From a virus: a stretch of DNA of 36,938 bases. A program made the position numbers and the translations under genes. This document shows, in pieces, positions 13,955 through 35,758 of the stretch (positions within the stretch are counted from its first letter, which is position 1; every line of letters begins with the position of its first letter). The stretch covers positions 1 to 36,938 of the IMG/VR virus record IMGVR_UViG_3300022752_000005. One strand, written 5' to 3'. The notes beneath the pieces were generated by a model. The model was not told the origin of the DNA. It saw only the letters and a list, made by a program, of their open reading frames with translations, and made no database searches.

Positions 13955-15640
13955 ATGTCTGGTGGTTCAAGTCAACAATCACAGCAGTTAGATCCTGCAT
14001 TGCGTGAAGCTTATTTGCAGAACGTACAAAGCGCACAAGGCGTTGCCGCAGGTTTGGCTCCAAGAGAGTTTGCAGGGTTTACTCCTGATCAACAACAGGC
14101 GTTTGCGTTGAATCGTTTGTATGGAAGCGCCCAAAGCGCTCCAACTTTGTATGCGACTGATGCTGCAAATATATTGAGACAAGGCGCTCAATATACTCCT
14201 CAGAATGTCCAATATGGTGCGTTTGGTGGAGCAACAGTAGACCCTGCGGCTATGGCTGCTCAACAAGGTTATCAAGCGGCACAATTTGCAGGTGCTACTG
14301 CTGGTCCTGCTGAGAGGGCGCAAGCGGCTCAACTATCCCGTTCAGCAGTTCGTGATGTAAATGCCGAGCGTATTGCCGCAGAGCGTATCGCTGCTGCACA
14401 AGCAGCTAGAAGTGGCGCAAGAGATGTATCTGCTACTGGTGTTACAGGCGCTCAAGTAGCATCTGAAGCTTTGGGTCAGATTGCTCCACAAGCTCGTGGA
14501 AATATTCGTGATATTGAGGCGGCATCATTTCTGAATCAAAATATTCAGCAGTATATGAATCCATATACGCAAGCTGTTACTAATCAAAGTTTGCAAGATT
14601 TAGAGCGTTCACGCCAATTAGAACAACAGAGAACTGCGGCTCAAGCTACTGCGGCACGTGCTTTTGGTGGCTCCCGTCAAGGTGTTGCGGAAGCAGAGAC
14701 TAATCGTGCATTTGGAGAAAATGCAGCTCGATTGGTTGCCCAACAGAATGCCGCTGCTTACCAGGCTGCACAACAAGCTTCTGAGGCTGACATTGCTCGT
14801 ACTATGCAGGCTCAACAGCTTAACCAAGCTCAAGATGCCGCTACTACTCAGCAAGCATTGCAATTAGCGGGTCAGTTTGGTTTGGCTAACCAAGATGCAA
14901 ACTTACGTGCGGCTTTGGCTAATCAAGGTGTTGATGTCCAGTATGGTCTTACAAATGCCCAACTTCAACAACAAGCGGCATTGGCAAATCAAGCTACTGG
15001 TTTAACTGCAGCTCAAGCTAATCAAGATGCAATGCTAAGGGCGGCACTATCTAATCAAGGCTATGATTTTAATGTTGGTCAGATGAATACAATGAACCAA
15101 CAAGCCACTAACTTGGCAAACCAAGCGGCTGCTAATCAGATGGCTCAGTTCAATGCTGGTAACTTGCAACAAGCAGGTCTTGCTAATATGGGCGCTACTA
15201 ACCAAGCTTCTCAGTTTGGTGCTTCTGCATTTAATCAAGCAGGTTTAGCTAATCAAGCGGCTTTAAATGCACGTGCGGCTCAACAAGCAGGACTGACTCA
15301 GCAAACGGGTTTGACTAATGCTCAAAACTTGTTACAAGCTAACTTAGCTAATCAGCAAGCTGGTTTGGCTGCCAATCAGCAAGCACTTACTAGTGGAAGC
15401 CAGTTGGCCTCTGCCGCTACAAACTTGCAAAACCTTGGATTTGGTCAGGCCAATCAACTTGCTCAACAAGGTGCATTGCAACAAGGCTTCTCACAACAAC
15501 AGTTGGATGCCATCCGCAATCTCCCATTGGAGCAACAACAGATTCTCAACCAAGCATTGGGACTCAATGTTGGCGGTGGTTCGGGAATGCAATCATCTTC
15601 TACTTCACGCCAAGGTTTGCTTGGCTTGCTTGGCCTCTAA
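13955..15640 (+). CDS. Gln/Ala-rich internal virion protein
   Basis: This 561-residue protein starts at the ATG at 13955, chosen because GGAGG lies 7 nt upstream; an upstream in-frame TTG lacks such a site. The N-terminus (SGGSSQQSQQLDPALREAYL) precedes a very long Gln/Ala/Asn-rich region. Irregular repeats of the type LANQ-A and QAGLANQ are densest at about 320-500. No enzyme motif is seen. Its place before another large protein and a transglycosylase-bearing protein fits a set of podovirus internal (ejection) proteins. The repeats probably form long helices. Confidence 0.75.
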   Translation: MSGGSSQQSQQLDPALREAYLQNVQSAQGVAAGLAPREFAGFTPDQQQAFALNRLYGSAQSAPTLYATDAANILRQGAQYTPQNVQYGAFGGATVDPAAMAAQQGYQAAQFAGATAGPAERAQAAQLSRSAVRDVNAERIAAERIAAAQAARSGARDVSATGVTGAQVASEALGQIAPQARGNIRDIEAASFLNQNIQQYMNPYTQAVTNQSLQDLERSRQLEQQRTAAQATAARAFGGSRQGVAEAETNRAFGENAARLVAQQNAAAYQAAQQASEADIARTMQAQQLNQAQDAATTQQALQLAGQFGLANQDANLRAALANQGVDVQYGLTNAQLQQQAALANQATGLTAAQANQDAMLRAALSNQGYDFNVGQMNTMNQQATNLANQAAANQMAQFNAGNLQQAGLANMGATNQASQFGASAFNQAGLANQAALNARAAQQAGLTQQTGLTNAQNLLQANLANQQAGLAANQQALTSGSQLASAATNLQNLGFGQANQLAQQGALQQGFSQQQLDAIRNLPLEQQQILNQALGLNVGGGSGMQSSSTSRQGLLGLLGL

Positions 15641-25945: not shown

Positions 25946-25974
25946 TACATAGGGGTTTTCCCTAATTTACGCAA
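25946..25974 (-). promoter_or_regulatory. Promoter of the minus-strand recombination operon with operator-like palindrome
   Basis: The minus strand reads TTGCGT (25974-25969), a 17-nt spacer and TATGTA (25951-25946). The spacer contains a hyphenated palindrome AGGGAAAACCCCT (25963-25951). An AGGG-AAAA-CCCT copy lies at 30551-30562. A regulator acting on the spacer would block this promoter. The prediction is by eye. Confidence 0.5.
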
Positions 25975-26539: not shown

Positions 26540-26549
26540 AAAAAACTTC

Positions 26550-26576
26550 TTGACACAATAAAAAGTTGTGTACAAT
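26550..26576 (+). promoter_or_regulatory. Sigma70-type promoter with operator-like inverted repeat
   Basis: TTGACA (26550-26555) and TACAAT (26571-26576) are separated by 15 nt, slightly short. Arms ACACAA (26553-26558) and TTGTGT (26566-26571) form an inverted repeat between the elements, as for an operator. A start near 26583 would yield the hairpin RNA described next. Confidence 0.6.
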
Positions 26577-26582
26577 GAAATT

Positions 26583-26682
26583 GTTGTCGTGGAAAACAAC
26601 AGATTTAGGCCACTTAATTCTACTCTCGCCCTTGGTTTTTACCCTTGGGTTTCCACCGAGGGTAGAGCTAAGTGGCTTTTTT
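26583..26682 (+). ncRNA. Candidate small RNA (about 100 nt) ending in a long terminator hairpin
   Basis: The region between the promoter at 26550 and a T-run has a first small hairpin (GTTGT/ACAAC, 26583-26600) and a long terminator stem. No convincing coding frame lies here. Independent promoter, compact folding and terminator within 100 nt fit a phage small RNA or an attenuator-type leader of the replication genes at 26907. No known RNA family was recognised. Confidence 0.5.
26609..26682 (+). terminator. Long Rho-independent terminator hairpin
   Basis: GCCACTTA (26609-26616) pairs with TAAGTGGC (26669-26676). After one mismatch, TTCTACTCTCG (26618-26628) pairs with CGAGGGTAGAG (26657-26667), including two G-U pairs. 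Six T follow. The stem is unusually long (19 pairs) with a 28-nt loop, so part of it may serve as an RNA structure besides termination. Confidence 0.8.
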
Positions 26683-26906
26683 CATGTCTTTCACACAGCC
26701 GTACTCCACACGAAAGTAGTGCATCTGCATGGATGGCTTGGAAGAAAACACCGACATCAGGAAACACCCCCTGTTTGCCGACCAGCGTTAGTTAAGCGAC
26801 TGGTAAAGCATTTGGTACATCGGTGGTAACAAGGCCAAATGTATAAGCGAATTAACTCGTCATGCGCACTTGGGGCGTTTTGTATTTTAGTTAACAGGAG
26901 TGAATA
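26683..26906 (+). other. Non-coding leader of the replication operon
   Basis: These 224 nt follow the terminator and precede the gene at 26907. I see no convincing gene: short ATG frames of 10 and 20 codons are present (26684 and around 26750) without support. The last 20 nt carry TTAACAGGAGTGAATA, a good ribosome binding site. Transcription of the operon presumably comes from read-through or an unrecognised promoter. Confidence 0.5.
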
Positions 26907-29673: not shown

Positions 29674-30000
29674 ATGAAACAACGTGGCGGCTCAAGAAAA
29701 GGCGCTGGTCGTAAGAAGATCAGCGAACAAGGTAGGACTATCCGAGCAAGGGTAGCGCCTATCCATGAGCAAGCATTGACCTTGGCAGGGAATGGATCTT
29801 TGTCAGAAGGTATCCGTAGATTAGCAGAGAAACATTGGAGATTGATTCATGGAGAGCAGCCCCGACAAAGCAATTCAGTATTTGATCGACACCGCACCCT
29901 TGTACGCCCAAGCGAAGTCGGAGCGCCTGTACTTGGAGGAGTTCCGAAAGTCCAAGAAGGCTCACCTGATGAGCCAGGCAGGGACGGAAGTTCTGGGTAA
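29674..30000 (+). CDS. Small basic protein with GGSRKGAGRK N-terminus
   Basis: This 108-residue protein begins RGGSRKGAGRKKISEQGRTI and continues RARVAPIHEQALTLAGNGSL and SEGIRRLAEKHWRL. The GGxRxGAGRK start and the short strand then two helices (residues 20-55) resemble ribbon-helix-helix proteins. It likely binds DNA. After about residue 58 the frame overlaps the next gene by 152 nt and is low-complexity, so its C-terminal part may be a by-product of the overlap. Confidence 0.62.
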   Translation: MKQRGGSRKGAGRKKISEQGRTIRARVAPIHEQALTLAGNGSLSEGIRRLAEKHWRLIHGEQPRQSNSVFDRHRTLVRPSEVGAPVLGGVPKVQEGSPDEPGRDGSSG

Positions 30001-30175
30001 ACAAGAAACCTTTGCCTATGCCCATGAGGAATATATCGAAGTTCTTGAAGGCATAAGAGCTGCCGTTGAAAAAGAAGAGAAGTATCGGTGGCTAATGACT
30101 GCTGCCCAAGCCAGGATCGAAGTCTGGAGAACTAACCAGTACTCAGCCAGAATGGAAATCAGGGCAACCCAATGA
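29849..30175 (+). CDS. Conserved helical phage protein (108 aa)
   Basis: The protein is helical and charged: DTAPLYAQAKSERLYLEEFR, then KSKKAHLMSQA and AYAHEEYIEVLEGIRAAVEK, ending with WLMTAAQARIEVWRTNQYSA. I recognise the YLEEFRKSKKA-LM and AAQARIEVWR patterns as a common phage family of unknown function near replication genes. It overlaps the previous gene by 152 nt and the next by 4. The matching family strongly supports this frame. Confidence 0.75.
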   Translation: MESSPDKAIQYLIDTAPLYAQAKSERLYLEEFRKSKKAHLMSQAGTEVLGKQETFAYAHEEYIEVLEGIRAAVEKEEKYRWLMTAAQARIEVWRTNQYSARMEIRATQ

Positions 30176-30456: not shown

Positions 30457-30555
30457 TTTAAAAAGTTTCAAAAACTTTGAGTTTCCAAAAATTGGTTAAC
30501 TTGACTTTCTGAAAGGTAAAGGCCATTTTTTCCAAAAAACACCCATTTTTAGGGA

Positions 30556-30585
30556 AAACCCTGCGTTAGTAAGCACTCACTTCGC
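30556..30585 (+). repeat. Left copy of the 30-nt imperfect inverted repeat
   Basis: This segment matches the reverse complement of 33719-33748 at 26 of 30 positions. Blocks AAACCCT, CGTTAGT and CTCACTTCGC are identical; the differences lie in the centre. Together the copies bracket the minus-strand island. Confidence 0.75.
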
Positions 30586-30800
30586 AAAAAATGTAAGTTA
30601 GCACTCACTTCACAAAACCAGGTCAGTTAGCACTCACTCACTTAGCAGCTAAAAGCAATGCCTGAGACAAGCTTTAAAATCCGATTTAAACCTGTTATAA
30701 AGGCTTTTTAAGCCTACTTTTACGATTCCCTATGGTAGGTATGCACCAGCTAGGAAAAATGGCTTAAATCAACGATTCCATGATGTAAGCACTCACTTCA
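30565..30800. repeat. Four GTTAG..CACTCACT sites, left cluster
   Basis: Copies: 30565-30585 (GTTAGTAAGCACTCACTTC), 30597-30611 (GTTAGCACTCACTTC), 30626-30640 (GTTAGCACTCACTCA) and 30785-30800 (GTAAGCACTCACTTCA). All share GCACTCACT. Spacing is irregular. They are related to palindromic sites of the type AGTGAG-CA-CTCACT seen at the right cluster. Confidence 0.75.
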
Positions 30801-30815
30801 TTAAGAAACCCAAAG

Positions 30816-30838
30816 AAAGGGGCTAAAAACCCCTTTTT
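30816..30838. terminator. Terminator between convergent operons
   Basis: AAAGGGG (30816-30822) pairs with CCCCTTT (30830-30836) around CTAAAAA, followed by five T in the plus direction. It should stop plus-strand transcripts before the minus-strand gene ending at 30852. In the reverse direction it also has a short T-run. Confidence 0.8.
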
Positions 30839-30851
30839 GTGGATCACCTAG

Positions 30852-31037
30852 TTAGAGAGAGGGCAACAATTGCCAAAACTGAGATGGTGAGATGCATAAA
30901 GGCTTTGAATCAGGATCTTCCAAAGACTGAACCCAATATGCACAATTTTCTTCGCTAATGACCTCATAAAGATCTGATGCATCCAAGAGGATCACGCCAA
31001 CAGCGCCTTTCATTTTTCCGATTCCATTGTGATCCAT
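30852..31037 (-). CDS. Hypothetical protein (61 aa)
   Basis: The frame begins 1 nt after the stop of the upstream gene. The sequence (GAVGVILLDASDLYEVISEE, then NCAYWVQSLEDPDSKP) suggests a small alpha-beta fold. There is no strong SD; translation may be coupled. Family not recognised. It is the last gene in the minus-strand island. Confidence 0.55.
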   Translation of the reverse strand: MDHNGIGKMKGAVGVILLDASDLYEVISEENCAYWVQSLEDPDSKPLCISPSQFWQLLPSL

Positions 31038-31038
31038 T

Positions 31039-31272
31039 TTATTTGCTTTCTAGATATTGATGGGGTTCCGGATTTTTTAGCTTCAATTCCATGATGATGT
31101 AATTCCATAGGACTTTCTCTAGATCTCCTTTAGAGCTGCCCTCAAAGTACCATTTCCCAAGATCTCTATGCTCTACCCCAATGACATCTTGAATGTGATT
31201 ACAAGCCACATCAATAGATTCTTTGACTAAGTTGTTGACCTCTTCTTCGGTCATAAAATGCCAGGCTTTCAT
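31039..31272 (-). CDS. Hypothetical helical protein (77 aa)
   Basis: The start overlaps the GP88-like gene stop as ATGA. The protein is helical and acidic (MTEEEVNNLVKESIDVACNH, then WYFEGSSKGDLEKVLWNYII). Function unknown. The tight coupling supports it as a gene. Confidence 0.6.
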   Translation of the reverse strand: MKAWHFMTEEEVNNLVKESIDVACNHIQDVIGVEHRDLGKWYFEGSSKGDLEKVLWNYIIMELKLKNPEPHQYLESK

Positions 31273-32027
31273 AAATAATGCACCCCTTTAATTTGAACAA
31301 AACCCGATTGATCTTTTTTTGCTTTGCCTTTGGCATATAAAGCCACAACTACATTTTTTGGTTCAATATGGCGAATATCAGTATCATCACCATCGATAAC
31401 TTCCCATGATCTAAAAGTTAATGGGATATCTTCCTTCTTTTGAAAAACAACTGCAGCCCTAGCATTATTGGGATTAGATAATCCTTTGATAGATATCGGT
31501 TTAGGGGTAATACTAGAGAATGAATATGTCAAATCATAATTGCCATATGTTTTTCCATTAAGGTTTCTAGAGGGATGCTTTGTGTAATCATAAAATATTT
31601 CATCAGGGAACATTTGGAAAATAGTTTGATCGTGAAGAATCTTGTAATTTTCCCAAAGAATATCGCTAGTCCCATTTAATCGAATTAATAGTTTTTGATC
31701 CTTTTTTCTTGCATAATATTTTAGTGTCCAAATATCAGCACAAAGGGATAATAAAAAAGATCGTTGATCTGAATACCAAAAATCGGTTTTTGCTTGCCTA
31801 GCTTTTTGAATGCTAGTAAATGCACCTCTACCCGCTGAATAAAGGCAGCCCTCCATGCACCCCGCAAGCCTTGCAAGAGGGCAAAGATCATCGTTAGGGG
31901 TTAGGTAGAGGATGGCAGTGAGATAGCCTAGCTTCTCGCCTTTGATTGTCTTTGTGGAGGCAGTCCCTAAAAGCTTCTTGTAAGTTAAGCCTTCACGCCT
32001 AATAATTAATTTGTAAGGATTTGTCAT
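31269..32027 (-). CDS. GP88-family phage protein
   Basis: This 252-residue protein (start at MTNPYKL, 32027; an ATG 12 nt upstream is also in frame) has the GP88-type order: KLGYLTAILYLTPNDDLCPL, then CMEGCLYSAGRGAF, DFWYSDQRSFLLSL, KLLIRLNGTSDILWE, FYDYTKHP and VIDGDDTDIRH, ending KGKAKKDQSGFV. The family is recognised in phages (gene product 88) without known role. Conserved C (about 49, 57, 61), R-L-N-G-T-S and FYDYTK residues suggest an enzyme or metal site. A GGCGT leader precedes the start. Confidence 0.82.
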   Translation of the reverse strand: MTNPYKLIIRREGLTYKKLLGTASTKTIKGEKLGYLTAILYLTPNDDLCPLARLAGCMEGCLYSAGRGAFTSIQKARQAKTDFWYSDQRSFLLSLCADIWTLKYYARKKDQKLLIRLNGTSDILWENYKILHDQTIFQMFPDEIFYDYTKHPSRNLNGKTYGNYDLTYSFSSITPKPISIKGLSNPNNARAAVVFQKKEDIPLTFRSWEVIDGDDTDIRHIEPKNVVVALYAKGKAKKDQSGFVQIKGVHYL

Positions 32028-32051
32028 ATTCACGCCCATTAAAAAGTTGAT

Positions 32052-32288
32052 TTATTTTTTGATTCGGATTAACTCATTATCTCGATAGCATGAGTTACAA
32101 GATGGTGTTCCCAAAAAGATTTGCACCGTGTAAATATCTCCTGCAATTTCATGCCACCAGTCATTTTCAAGGTTATATTGCTTTGCATGATTAGATAACC
32201 CAAGTTTTAAATGCTCTATACAAAGCATTTCCTTTTCATGGTAAGCCTCAAAAGAAAAATTCCAGGTGTCTAGTTTAGCTTTCCACAT
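32052..32288 (-). CDS. Hypothetical protein (78 aa)
   Basis: The start at 32288 is chosen because AGGAG lies 8 nt upstream; an upstream in-frame ATG lacks one. The sequence includes TWNFSFEAYHEKEMLCIEHL, YNLENDWWHEIAG and PSCNSCYRDNELI with a C-x2-C. Function unknown. It overlaps the previous gene by 14 nt. Confidence 0.6.
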   Translation of the reverse strand: MWKAKLDTWNFSFEAYHEKEMLCIEHLKLGLSNHAKQYNLENDWWHEIAGDIYTVQIFLGTPSCNSCYRDNELIRIKK

Positions 32289-32535
32289 TTTTACTCTCCT
32301 CTTCGGTGTCTTCAATATCTTCAATTTGCATCCATTCTTCAATTATTTGAGTGCCACTACATAAAAGATGCTGAATTGAATCAATAACCATTTCGGCATG
32401 ATATTTTTGATAAGTATCACTTTTAATATATGCTTTGAATGCAATTAATATCCCAAAAACTGAATTAATCTCTTCTAAGCCTTCATAAAGCATAAATTCA
32501 TTTAAAAGCTTTGGATGCTCTTTAGATTTAGTCAT
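32275..32535 (-). CDS. Hypothetical acidic helical protein (86 aa)
   Basis: SD GGAGG lies 5 nt before the ATG. The protein is helical with an acidic tail (EEWMQIEDIEDTEEESKNVE). No domain is recognised. Start overlaps the preceding gene by 4 nt. Confidence 0.6.
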   Translation of the reverse strand: MTKSKEHPKLLNEFMLYEGLEEINSVFGILIAFKAYIKSDTYQKYHAEMVIDSIQHLLCSGTQIIEEWMQIEDIEDTEEESKNVES

Positions 32536-32729
32536 ATTGCCTCCACTTCATAACTTAGATCCTTAGAAACTACCTCATAACCTAGACCCTTAATTTGCTT
32601 AATGGCATCATAAGAAAGGGTTTTGGTTTTGGTTAGCTTTGCAAAGGTTTTAGCTTTGTCGCATATTGGATAGAAAAGAAATCCTCCATATGCCTTGTCT
32701 ATTTGGATAGTGATGGTTAGTTTTTCCAT
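32532..32729 (-). CDS. Hypothetical protein (65 aa)
   Basis: The leader has AAAGGCGTAAATC directly before the ATG, a GGCGT motif shared with two other genes of this island. The sequence (KLTITIQIDKAYGGFLFYPI, then TLSYDAIKQIKGLGYEVVSK) suggests a small beta-alpha-beta protein. Function unknown. Confidence 0.6.
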   Translation of the reverse strand: MEKLTITIQIDKAYGGFLFYPICDKAKTFAKLTKTKTLSYDAIKQIKGLGYEVVSKDLSYEVEAI

Positions 32730-32760
32730 GATTTACGCCTTTAAAAAGAAAAGAAAAAGA

Positions 32761-32856
32761 TTATTTTGTGAGAATGTCAAAGTAAGCCAATAAACCCGCA
32801 CAAAGGGTTAAGCCAATCAAGATGGCAGCTAGGATGTCTTTGTGGTTATCGTTCAT
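32761..32856 (-). CDS. Small single-pass membrane protein (31 aa)
   Basis: The ATG (32856) overlaps the previous stop as ATGA and has AAAGGAGC upstream. It encodes MNDNHKDILAAILIGLTLCA followed by GLLAYFDILTK. Residues 8-25 form one hydrophobic span. Function unknown. Confidence 0.6.
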   Translation of the reverse strand: MNDNHKDILAAILIGLTLCAGLLAYFDILTK

Positions 32857-33053
32857 GCTTTAGCTCCTTTGGTAGTTTGCAAGCCCTTGTAATCGTGAAT
32901 GTAGTCAGCAAGATCTACACAAACCCAAGAAACAACTGATTCAGCCTCTGAGTAGGTATCCCAAAGGTTATCGCCATGCATATCGTGTAAATAATCCCCA
33001 TTTGGTTTTTCTACCATGTAACCATCAAGGGTTTTAATAATTGTGACTTTCAT
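32853..33053 (-). CDS. Hypothetical protein (66 aa)
   Basis: SD AAGGAG precedes the ATG. The protein (IIKTLDGYMVEKPNGDYLHD, then WDTYSEAESVVSWVCVDLAD) resembles small beta-hairpin plus helix proteins in phages. Function unknown. It is coupled to the membrane protein gene downstream. Confidence 0.6.
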   Translation of the reverse strand: MKVTIIKTLDGYMVEKPNGDYLHDMHGDNLWDTYSEAESVVSWVCVDLADYIHDYKGLQTTKGAKA

Positions 33054-33062
33054 TTCAGCTCC

Positions 33063-33251
33063 TTATGCAATGAATTCGGGGTTTGTAGTCACGCCATGTT
33101 CAATGGCAATAGCCATTATTTCATTTTGGGACTTGGAAGATCTAGCCGAACGAATGAGGGTAGATAGGGATCTAGCGAGATAGTCTTTACCTAGACCAGC
33201 TTCACTATATTGAATGGACTTTGCCACTTCTTTAGATTCAGATTTTGTCAT
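33063..33251 (-). CDS. Hypothetical Ser/Lys-rich helical protein (62 aa)
   Basis: This is the first gene of the minus-strand island, with a GGCGTACACA leader before the ATG and a candidate promoter about 55 nt upstream. The sequence (TKSESKEVAKSIQYSEAGLG, then YLARSLSTLIRSARSSKSQN) looks helical and may contain a HTH-like segment near 35-55, but this is weak. Function unknown. Confidence 0.6.
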   Translation of the reverse strand: MTKSESKEVAKSIQYSEAGLGKDYLARSLSTLIRSARSSKSQNEIMAIAIEHGVTTNPEFIA

Positions 33252-33302
33252 TGTGTACGCCTATTGAGTTGATGATAGAGAGGCTAAAAATCTACCCTCT
33301 CA

Positions 33303-33330
33303 CATATATAGCACGAAAGAATCGTGCCAA
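33303..33330 (-). promoter_or_regulatory. Candidate promoter of the minus-strand island with embedded operator
   Basis: On the minus strand TTGGCA (33330-33325), a 16-nt spacer and TATATG (33308-33303) form a sigma70-like promoter. The spacer contains a palindrome GCACGA-N5-TCGTGC (33311-33327), a likely repressor site. A leader hairpin GAGAGG/CCTCTC (33278-33301) follows. Confidence 0.45.
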
Positions 33331-33405
33331 CTCTCGTAAGTTGTTGATTCCATTGACTGCTCCAAAACCCTGTCAGTAGAAACCCTTAGAACCTGAGTAT
33401 TCAGT

Positions 33406-33425
33406 TTGATTTTGTAGCTACAATT
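33406..33425 (+). promoter_or_regulatory. Second copy of the TTGTAGCTAC promoter-like site
   Basis: The segment contains a perfect 12-bp palindrome TTGTAGCTACAA (33412-33423) with a TACAAT at 33419-33424 and is 19/20 identical to 29648-29667. If it is a promoter, the transcript would run through the purine-rich tract to the terminase genes. Confidence 0.5.
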
Positions 33426-33664
33426 GGAAAAGAAAAGAAAGGGCAAACCCATTACAAGGGCAGCTAGACAAGTAAGGGATAGTAAAGGGGATCAGAGAGG
33501 ATATATAAGGGCTAGGACAAGAGATAGGGTAAGGATGGACATAGACTAGGTAGAAGATGGAGAAACCCTTTAGACCTCGATCTATCCACATCCTTTGCGC
33601 CCATGAGACAAACTATGCATTTCTTGCATAACCTTTTGTAAATGAGACTCATTCGCATTCATAA

Positions 33665-33739
33665 GTTAGTTGGTACTCACTAACCTGGTCTAAGTTAGTT
33701 GGCACTTACTAACATTTGGCGAAGTGAGCACTCACTAAC
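33665..33739. repeat. Three GTTAGT...ACTAAC palindromic sites, right cluster
   Basis: Copies: GTTAGTTGGTACTCACTAAC (33665-33684), GTTAGTTGGCACTTACTAAC (33694-33713) and GAAGTGAGCACTCACTAAC (33721-33739). Arms GTTAGT/ACTAAC or AGTGAG/CTCACT make dyad-symmetric sites 27-29 nt apart, as for a TetR-like dimer or an iteron-binding protein. Confidence 0.78.
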
Positions 33740-33748
33740 GTAGGGTTT
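33719..33748 (-). repeat. Right copy of the 30-nt imperfect inverted repeat
   Basis: The reverse complement of this segment matches 30556-30585 at 26 of 30 positions. It contains the last dyad site plus AGGGTTT, the counterpart of AAACCCT on the left. Confidence 0.75.
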
Positions 33749-33915
33749 ACCCCCCCCTAGAGCAAAAGTGGGGGGCGCTGTGGCAGGGGACATAAACACA
33801 CATCGATACACCCTTCAAAGCTAAGACCCCCCTACCCCCTCCCCCAACCACAAAAGAACCCTCCAAAAAATTTTTTATAGTTTAGAATTTGTATCCATTA
33901 AATCAAGGAGAAGAT

Positions 33916-34371
33916 ATGGCAGGATTTCCTATGAGGAGAGCGTTGGAGAAGAAGATAGAAGAGCTTGGGGGCATTGAATTCGTAACAGCTCACATTAGCC
34001 AAGGAATGACCATAGGACGCTTGGCAGAGTTCATAGAGTGTTCTAGGCCCATGCTTTCTTTCTGGATCAACCATACTGATGAGCGTAGAGATGCGGTACT
34101 TGCTGCCCGTAAGCTAAAGGCTGAGAAACTGGCAGAAGAGGCTCTTGATATTGCTGACCAAGCAGATGAGACAAGCAATAGTGGAGTTAACAAAGCTAGG
34201 CTCCAAGTTGACACCCGTAAGTGGATGGCCTCCAAGCTTGACCCTGAGAACTATGGAGACACCGCCAAGACCCAAGTCAATATTAGTTTAGGTGATCTAC
34301 ACCTCCAAGCTCTAAAGCACATGGGCAAGGCCGAGGTAGTTGTCGAGACATTGGAAAACAATGGCACATAA
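33916..34371 (+). CDS. terS: Terminase small subunit-like protein
   Basis: The start at 33916 has AAGGAG 5 nt upstream; an upstream TTG frame extension lacks one. This 151-residue protein has an N-terminal HTH-like region (about 25-50: TAHISQGMTIGRLAEFIECS), a helical oligomerisation stretch (60-90) and VDTRKWMASKLDPENYGDTA (100-119), a pattern common in small terminase-like proteins next to large terminase genes. It would recognise the phage DNA for packaging. It overlaps terL by 11 nt. Confidence 0.85.
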   Translation: MAGFPMRRALEKKIEELGGIEFVTAHISQGMTIGRLAEFIECSRPMLSFWINHTDERRDAVLAARKLKAEKLAEEALDIADQADETSNSGVNKARLQVDTRKWMASKLDPENYGDTAKTQVNISLGDLHLQALKHMGKAEVVVETLENNGT

Positions 34372-35758
34372 CCCGTTTATCCAGTTCATCACCCTATACA
34401 GGAATGACCCTAATCTGTTCGTTAAAGAGGTCTTAGGAGTAGAGCCTGATGATTGGCAGCAAGACTTTTTAAACGCCGTGGCCTCTGGTGAGCGCAAGAT
34501 TTCAATCAGGTCTGGTCACGGGGTGGGTAAGTCAACCACCGCTTCTTGGGCAATGCTTTGGTTCTTGTTGACCAGGTATCCCGTCAAAGTCGTGGTGACT
34601 GCCCCTACTTCTGCCCAACTGTATGACGCTTTGTTTGCCGAGCTTAAAAGGTGGGTTAAAGAACTACCCCAACCTATCCAAGATCTACTTGATGTCAAAC
34701 AAGAGAGGATTGAACTAAAGGCAAGTGCGACAGAGGCTTTTATCTCTGCAAGGACTTCTCGTGCTGAACAGCCCGAAGCCCTCCAAGGTGTCCACTCTGA
34801 GAACGTCATGTTGGTTGCGGATGAGGCTTCTGGTGTCCCAGAGGCAGTATTTGAGGCCGCTGCTGGTTCCATGTCAGGCCATAACGCTTTAACCATCCTA
34901 CTTGGCAACCCTGTTCGTAGCTCTGGTTTCTTCTTTGACACCCATAATCGACTCAAAGATGAGTGGTGGACTAAGCGAGTATCCTGTATTGACTCTACTA
35001 GGGTGAGTAAAGAGTACGTAGAAGACATGAAATCCCGCTATGGCGAGGAAAGTAACGCTTACAGGATCAGGGTTTTGGGTGAGTTTCCAAGGAGCGATGA
35101 TGACACGATTATTCCTATGGAGTTGCTTGAGTCTGCTAAACACAGGGATACAAGAGCTTATGAAGATGCTCCGATCATTTGGGGACTAGACGTTGCGAGG
35201 TTTGGCTCCGATTCTTCAGTTCTATGTAAACGTCAGTCTAATGTTGTACACACTCTTGAGAGGTGGAGGAACCTTGATCTGATGCAACTAACAGGTGCAG
35301 TAGTCGCCCAATACGAAGCCTGTGACCACAAGAGCAGACCTACAGAGATTCTGGTTGACTCCATTGGCCTAGGAGCAGGTGTTGTTGACCGATTAAGAGA
35401 ACTAAAGCTTCCATGCCGTGGGATTAACGTATCTGAGAGTCCTGCTATGGGAGGGACGTATCTCAATCTGAGAGCAGAACTCTGGCATAAAACCAAGGCT
35501 TGGCTTGAGAAACGGGACTGCAAGATACCTAACAATGAGGATTTCATTGCTGAACTGGCAACTGTAAGGTACACCTTTACATCTAATGGCAAAATAAAAA
35601 TCGAATCTAAAGATGATATTCGTAGACGGGGACTGAAATCTCCTGACATGGCTGACGCATTTGTCTTGACATTTGCCTCAGATGCCGCCACCATCTCATG
35701 GGGGTCTAACTTGTCTTGGGGTAAACCGATTAAAAGGTTGATCCGAGGTTTGGTCTGA
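34361..35758 (+). CDS. terL: Terminase large subunit
   Basis: This 465-residue protein is the packaging motor and nuclease. The ATPase has Walker A SGHGVGKS (51-58), Walker B VMLVADEA (149-156) and a LLGNPVRSSG motif-III region (180-189). The nuclease has GLDVARFGSD (Asp277), VDSIGLGAG (Asp333) and SPDMADAF (427-434) as acidic positions. Start is the ATG at 34361 with GGAAA upstream. A strong terminator follows. The headful or cos mode cannot be decided from sequence. Confidence 0.95.
   Translation: MAHNPFIQFITLYRNDPNLFVKEVLGVEPDDWQQDFLNAVASGERKISIRSGHGVGKSTTASWAMLWFLLTRYPVKVVVTAPTSAQLYDALFAELKRWVKELPQPIQDLLDVKQERIELKASATEAFISARTSRAEQPEALQGVHSENVMLVADEASGVPEAVFEAAAGSMSGHNALTILLGNPVRSSGFFFDTHNRLKDEWWTKRVSCIDSTRVSKEYVEDMKSRYGEESNAYRIRVLGEFPRSDDDTIIPMELLESAKHRDTRAYEDAPIIWGLDVARFGSDSSVLCKRQSNVVHTLERWRNLDLMQLTGAVVAQYEACDHKSRPTEILVDSIGLGAGVVDRLRELKLPCRGINVSESPAMGGTYLNLRAELWHKTKAWLEKRDCKIPNNEDFIAELATVRYTFTSNGKIKIESKDDIRRRGLKSPDMADAFVLTFASDAATISWGSNLSWGKPIKRLIRGLV

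Follow-up and report, generated by a model that had tools for sequence, protein, structure and literature searches.

We analysed a 36,938-nt stretch of viral DNA (positions 1 to 36,938 of IMG/VR virus record IMGVR_UViG_3300022752_000005; hereafter the window), a circular phage contig of ~36.8 kb with a 127-nt terminal repeat and an Sf6-type terminase, focusing on a pair of inverted repeats that bracket a block of oppositely oriented genes. As a sequence-only reading of the window had described, nine minus-strand open reading frames (ORFs; 30852-33251) lie between the two arms, opposite to their neighbours; they include GP88 (31269-32039; Pfam PF17338, E=2e-35), and the first gene is p62 (33063-33251). 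The left gap (30457-30851) is a convergent non-coding region comprising a conserved AT-rich block, an A dyad, B dyads and a terminator-like hairpin. It is promoter-poor, with no promoter-like match, and no consensus RNA structure was found in it beyond terminator-like hairpins. On the other side of the island, a divergent gap leads up to terS; the right array lies there, in a regulatory or packaging-proximal region at 33660-33915. The terminase genes are encoded on the plus strand: terS (small subunit, Sf6-type, PF20901) at 33916-34371 and terL (large subunit) at 34340-35758. To the left of the island, a plus-strand gene at 29674-30000 encodes a small RGGSRKGAGRKK... protein that has no Pfam match and is probably a ribbon-helix-helix (RHH) protein.

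The sequence-only reading had reported that 30556-30585 and the reverse complement of 33719-33748 agree at 26 of 30 positions, partly through a shared dyad site, and both observations held. Ungapped extension lengthened the match to 38 nt (32/38, 84%), giving a left arm at 30552-30589 (plus strand) and a right arm at 33715-33752 (minus strand). A gapped alignment spanned both whole arrays (~30552-30645 and 33661-33752, ~95 nt) with a score of 84, compared with a maximum of 37 in 500 shuffles. A bare 26/30 match between 30-mers barely exceeds chance in a 37-kb sequence (the best of 12 Markov shuffles gave 25/30), and the repeat was counted as real because of its content rather than its length: each arm consists of one A dyad (AGGG-N4-CCCT) and then, at 5 nt, a B dyad, and on each side this pair stands first in an array of three B dyads. 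The arms are therefore two clusters of one dyad of the type bound by proteins.

The B dyad spans 20 bp (GTWAGTNAGYRCTNACTWAC) and is present in four copies at 30565-30800 and three copies at 33665-33739, each array opening with AGGG-N4-CCCT. The left array, spaced A-5-B-14-B-15-B-145-B, comprises an A dyad (AGGGAAAACCCT, 30551-30562) and B dyads L1 (GTTAGTAAGCACTCACTTCG, 30565-30584), L2 (GTAAGTTAGCACTCACTTCA, 30593-30612), L3 (GTCAGTTAGCACTCACTCAC, 30622-30641) and L4 (30781-30800). L4 lies directly 5' of the terminator, and in relatives it is kept ~145-180 bp from the other B dyads. Read inverted, the right array has the spacing A-5-B-12-B-15-B and comprises an A dyad (AGGGTTTACCCC, 33742-33753) and B dyads R1 (CGAAGTGAGCACTCACTAAC, 33720-33739), R2 (GTTAGTTGGCACTTACTAAC, 33694-33713) and R3 (GTTAGTTGGTACTCACTAAC, 33665-33684). 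Eight B-like sites were observed in the window against 2.4 expected, and pairs less than 90 bp apart never occurred in shuffled DNA. Apart from one isolated weak match at 15378, B dyads are confined to the two non-coding gaps that flank the minus-strand island.

To follow these features through related genomes, 48 GP88 relatives and 80 terS relatives were compared for presence, absence or inversion of the block with the arms as breakpoints, and no such variants were found. GP88 is opposite to ref and terS in 47/47 relatives, and p62 lies on the minus strand in every relative that possesses it. The arms and the island are gained and lost independently: the same GP88 island occurs without a right B array in L009, L028 and L043, and both B arrays occur with other island genes in L082, L100 and L112. 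In L160 and L164 a deletion has removed the left array region together with most of the island, so that the ref stop is joined to a p31-like gene, and its breakpoints do not fall at the arms. The close group retains the left B sites, most often in the arrangement A-12-B-15-B-~150-B. The content of the right region is interchangeable, with A repeats in most relatives and B arrays in the window, L051, L082, L083, L090, L098, L100 and L112. The long left form (A-5-B) mostly, but not exclusively, accompanies right B arrays and linkers are common to both arms, which suggests that the two arrays exchange sequence with each other.

At the position of the window's B dyads upstream of terS, 15 of 68 unique right regions (L055, L009, L004, L017 and others) carry a LexA (SOS)-box-like dyad, TACTGTN8ACAGTA, and among right-region inverted repeats with 6-nt arms the spacer is exactly 8 in 24 of 30. 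What is shared with the LexA boxes of phage regulatory regions is a 6-N8-6 dyad for a host regulator, which relatives have at the corresponding position, whereas the window itself has B dyads there.

The B dyad is over-represented in viral contigs. The exact dyad GTWAGTNNGCRCTCACTWAC was found in at least 120 viral stretches, compared with three for the reversed pattern. Arrays of at least two dyads were present in 96 of the 124 sequences examined, with 2-6 copies per array and a spacing that peaks mainly at 26-29 bp and to a lesser extent at 22-23 bp. All 53 arrays for which a terL could be detected are upstream of that gene, mostly within 0.6-1.5 kb. The arrays occur in phages without any common protein; a comparison of ten diverse array phages identified no protein common to them. 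The p62 family (the small first gene of the leftward operon) adjoins B arrays in 16 of the 96 array loci, including phages with ~30%-identical terL.

Bacterial genomes contained 78 exact dyad matches, or 77 excluding the phage contig L303. Of these 77, 38 lie at the 5' end of a gene matching a TetR hidden Markov model (HMM), where ~1.2 would be expected, and all ten sampled TetR-HMM genes behind the dyad contain Pfam PF00440 (TetR_N). These genes occur across many phyla, and the recognition helices of their products follow the pattern (S/T)(E/Q/D)xx(L/I)(Y/F)(K/R)xF, an SEAALY(R/K)HF-type helix as in SlmA (SEAALYRHF). A near-palindromic site before a TetR gene, as in TetR operators, is therefore found in bacterial genomes, and TetR-type recognition of the dyad is well supported. 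The same exact 20-bp dyad is thus shared with autoregulated TetR/AcrR-family operators at the start of TetR genes, but the phage arrays differ in being multi-copy and in having no adjacent TetR gene: PF00440 was detected in 0/32 array or relative phage records, and no TetR-HMM match was found in the window or the array loci. Since no TetR protein is encoded by the phage, the dyads are probably read by a TetR-family protein of the host, and the occurrence of one TetR-type operator array in phages without a common protein points to a host factor.

SlmA is a TetR-family nucleoid-occlusion factor of gamma- and beta-proteobacteria that, on binding sites of the GTGAGTACTCAC type, dismantles FtsZ polymers. 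Across 279 phage sites the consensus is GT(W)AGT(R)AGYRCT(Y)ACT(W)AC, and its core (GTNAGYRCTNAC) matches the published SlmA-binding sequence (SBS), GTGAGTACTCAC (PMC3116907). This 12-bp core is present with no mismatches in 16 of the 279 phage sites and with one mismatch in 52; the window sites have one or two mismatches (one in R1), except for one site with four. The SlmA helix VSEAALYRHF is identical in ten genomes, including E. coli and three beta-proteobacterial genomes. The only array in bacterial genome records, L303, is a phage contig in a beta-proteobacterial metagenome-assembled genome (MAG) that encodes SlmA (274 bits against a cut-off of 120) with a helix identical to that of E. 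coli, although bin membership is no proof of host. No full dyad with 0-1 mismatches was found on the other contigs of this MAG. The phage dyads resemble SBS in their palindromic core and in a proposed TetR-family reader, SlmA, whose SEAALYRHF helix is identical in beta-proteobacterial SlmA. They differ in being phage-borne, in forming arrays with a spacing of 22-29 bp, and in being extended to 20 bp with a central YR instead of mainly TA. We found no report of SlmA-type sites on phage genomes in the open-access literature, subscription literature being outside the search. SlmA is the best candidate among host TetR-family readers.

We therefore propose, with moderate confidence, that the two arrays to which the arms belong, built from a 20-bp TetR-type operator dyad, recruit host SlmA by DNA alone and so block FtsZ and division. 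The sequence-only reading had offered two sites of one replication or segregation system as an alternative to a mobile module, and its idea of two sites of one system with a shared dyad was right in substance, as both arms are clusters of the same dyad. Each replicating phage genome would supply seven near-consensus sites, onto which SlmA would load across the cytoplasm, recruited and activated away from the nucleoid. Z-ring assembly would then halt and the infected cell would remain undivided without a phage-encoded inhibitor. Each site takes up SlmA as a dimer of dimers (PMC4726725), and with a pool of a few hundred molecules in each cell (PMC4726725), or of ~500 dimers per nucleoid (PMC3573117), a few tens of phage genomes could provide enough sites to occupy most of it. 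When SlmA is functional, division of E. coli is lethally blocked by a multicopy plasmid that carries two SlmA sites in tandem (PMC3573117), and site arrays near ter (the terminus region) delay division (PMC4726725). The convergent, promoter-less position of the left array fits a non-transcriptional role. The proposed outcome, a host division block during infection, is comparable to that of phage FtsZ inhibitors such as lambda Kil (PMC3961180), but those are proteins, whereas here the effector would be DNA that recruits a host inhibitor.

More tentatively, SlmA-site arrays may occur across many and diverse uncultivated phages and make their replicating DNA a nucleoid-occlusion signal with no phage protein, as a cis-acting host-takeover element spreading between unrelated phages. 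If so, the host cell cycle would be manipulated by a phage DNA element rather than a protein, for which the only precedent so far is laboratory plasmids with tandem SlmA sites. With such arrays, phages of SlmA-bearing hosts could be recognised simply from genome sequence, and studies of nucleoid occlusion outside E. coli would gain a natural tool. The weaker reading, in which one TetR-type operator array common to phages without a shared protein implicates a host factor of some kind, would matter too.

Several points weigh against SlmA as the reader. The phage dyad is 20 bp long with a conserved outer GT(W)A, compared with the 12-bp published SlmA core, and the dyad is used by many bacterial TetR paralogues, so another host TetR could read it; it is for this reason that our confidence goes no further. 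No excess of the core was seen in beta-proteobacterial chromosomes. Its excess is also small in the enterobacterial ones, on which SlmA is active, and because these controls are low too, chromosomal enrichment cannot discriminate SlmA use. A blastn search of an annotated phage collection for cultured phages with arrays returned no convincing case. On the right side, A repeats are all that many close relatives have, although three B sites persist on the left. What the sequences show directly are the arrays with their conservation, position and spread, the link of the motif to TetR genes, the lack of a TetR gene in the array phages examined, and a SlmA recognition helix identical in E. coli and beta-proteobacteria; SlmA binding and activation, the division block and a SlmA-bearing proteobacterial host are inferred.

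The arrays could instead be operators for another host TetR/AcrR-family repressor, such as an efflux regulator, which the phage would use or titrate to set the timing of its late/terS and leftward island promoters, much as certain relatives seem to exploit LexA boxes at that position. This is consistent with the exact dyad preceding TetR genes in bacteria and with the right array lying in a divergent region upstream of terS, where relatives have LexA-box-like dyads. We consider it unlikely, as the left array sits in a convergent, promoter-poor region, the hosts of many unrelated phages would all need to possess one and the same repressor, and the MAG with an array phage has no other full dyad at 0-1 mismatches.

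Less probable still is a reader encoded by the phage itself, an unrecognised DNA-binding protein for which the dyads would serve as operators, iterons or packaging sites. In favour of this, the position upstream of terS/terL is consistent among arrays, and the RHH-like gene at 29674-30000 occurs together with left B sites in 113 loci and is absent in 25/25 without B sites, these loci being partly redundant. However, L189, L190 and L224 carry the same RHH-like protein with a different dyad in the left array, the protein is missing from distant array phages, and the diverse array phages have no protein common to all of them. Other candidates were also rejected: TerS, because relatives that have the right array and those that lack it are 95-100% identical in terS; p62, as reader or invariant partner, given its presence at only the 16/96 array loci noted above; and a phage LexA/CI-type repressor, as no S24 domain was detected in 20 array phages (outside the MAG).

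We regard as improbable a role of the arrays as part of a replication origin or packaging (pac/cos) site. The left array follows the strongly conserved AT-rich block and the right array adjoins a G/C-rich element upstream of terS, but variation in the replication-initiator gene does not follow the B sites, terS hardly changes while the right array is replaced, and no GC-skew switch stands out at either site. A cos end could not be derived from contig breakpoints, as contig starts scatter.

Finally, the proposal in the sequence-only reading that the arms delimit a mobile or invertible module, in keeping with homologous inverted arms that enclose an oppositely oriented gene block and may exchange sequence given the co-occurrence of the long left form with right B arrays, is largely refuted and now very improbable: no inversion was seen in 47 relatives, no recombinase or transposase scored above cut-off among the island proteins scanned with Pfam and PHROGs, and the independent turnover of arms and island, together with the L160/L164 breakpoints lying elsewhere, indicates that the arms are not element ends.

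Further observations were made on the A dyad and the neighbouring non-coding DNA. AGGG-N4-CCCT is also present at 25952-25963, near or in an early divergent promoter region, and many relatives have an array of A dyads upstream of terS. Across 150 genomes of the MAG's order, 12 exact 13-mer matches to the A dyad had no consistent neighbour. Between the right array and terS, a G/C-rich element (CCCCCCCC...GGGGGGCGCTGTG.CAGGGGAC, 33745-33800) is conserved in relatives and is possibly a cos/pac or late-promoter element. A conserved AATGAGAATCATTCGCATT-type element resembling a Fur box is present at 33638-33656 and at the same place in many relatives, where its agreement with the E. coli consensus (13-14/19) is within background. 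Elsewhere, the non-coding region at 26540-26900 features a perfect TTGACA separated by 17 bp from a TACAAT, with a strong hairpin (GCCACTTAATTCTACTC...GAGGGTAGAGCTAAGTGGCTTTTTT) after them, and is likely to encode a small RNA upstream of a replication-initiator-like gene. The RHH-like ORF at 29674-30000 overlaps an ORF at 29849-30175 by ~150 nt in a different frame, and both are well conserved, a possible case of dual coding.

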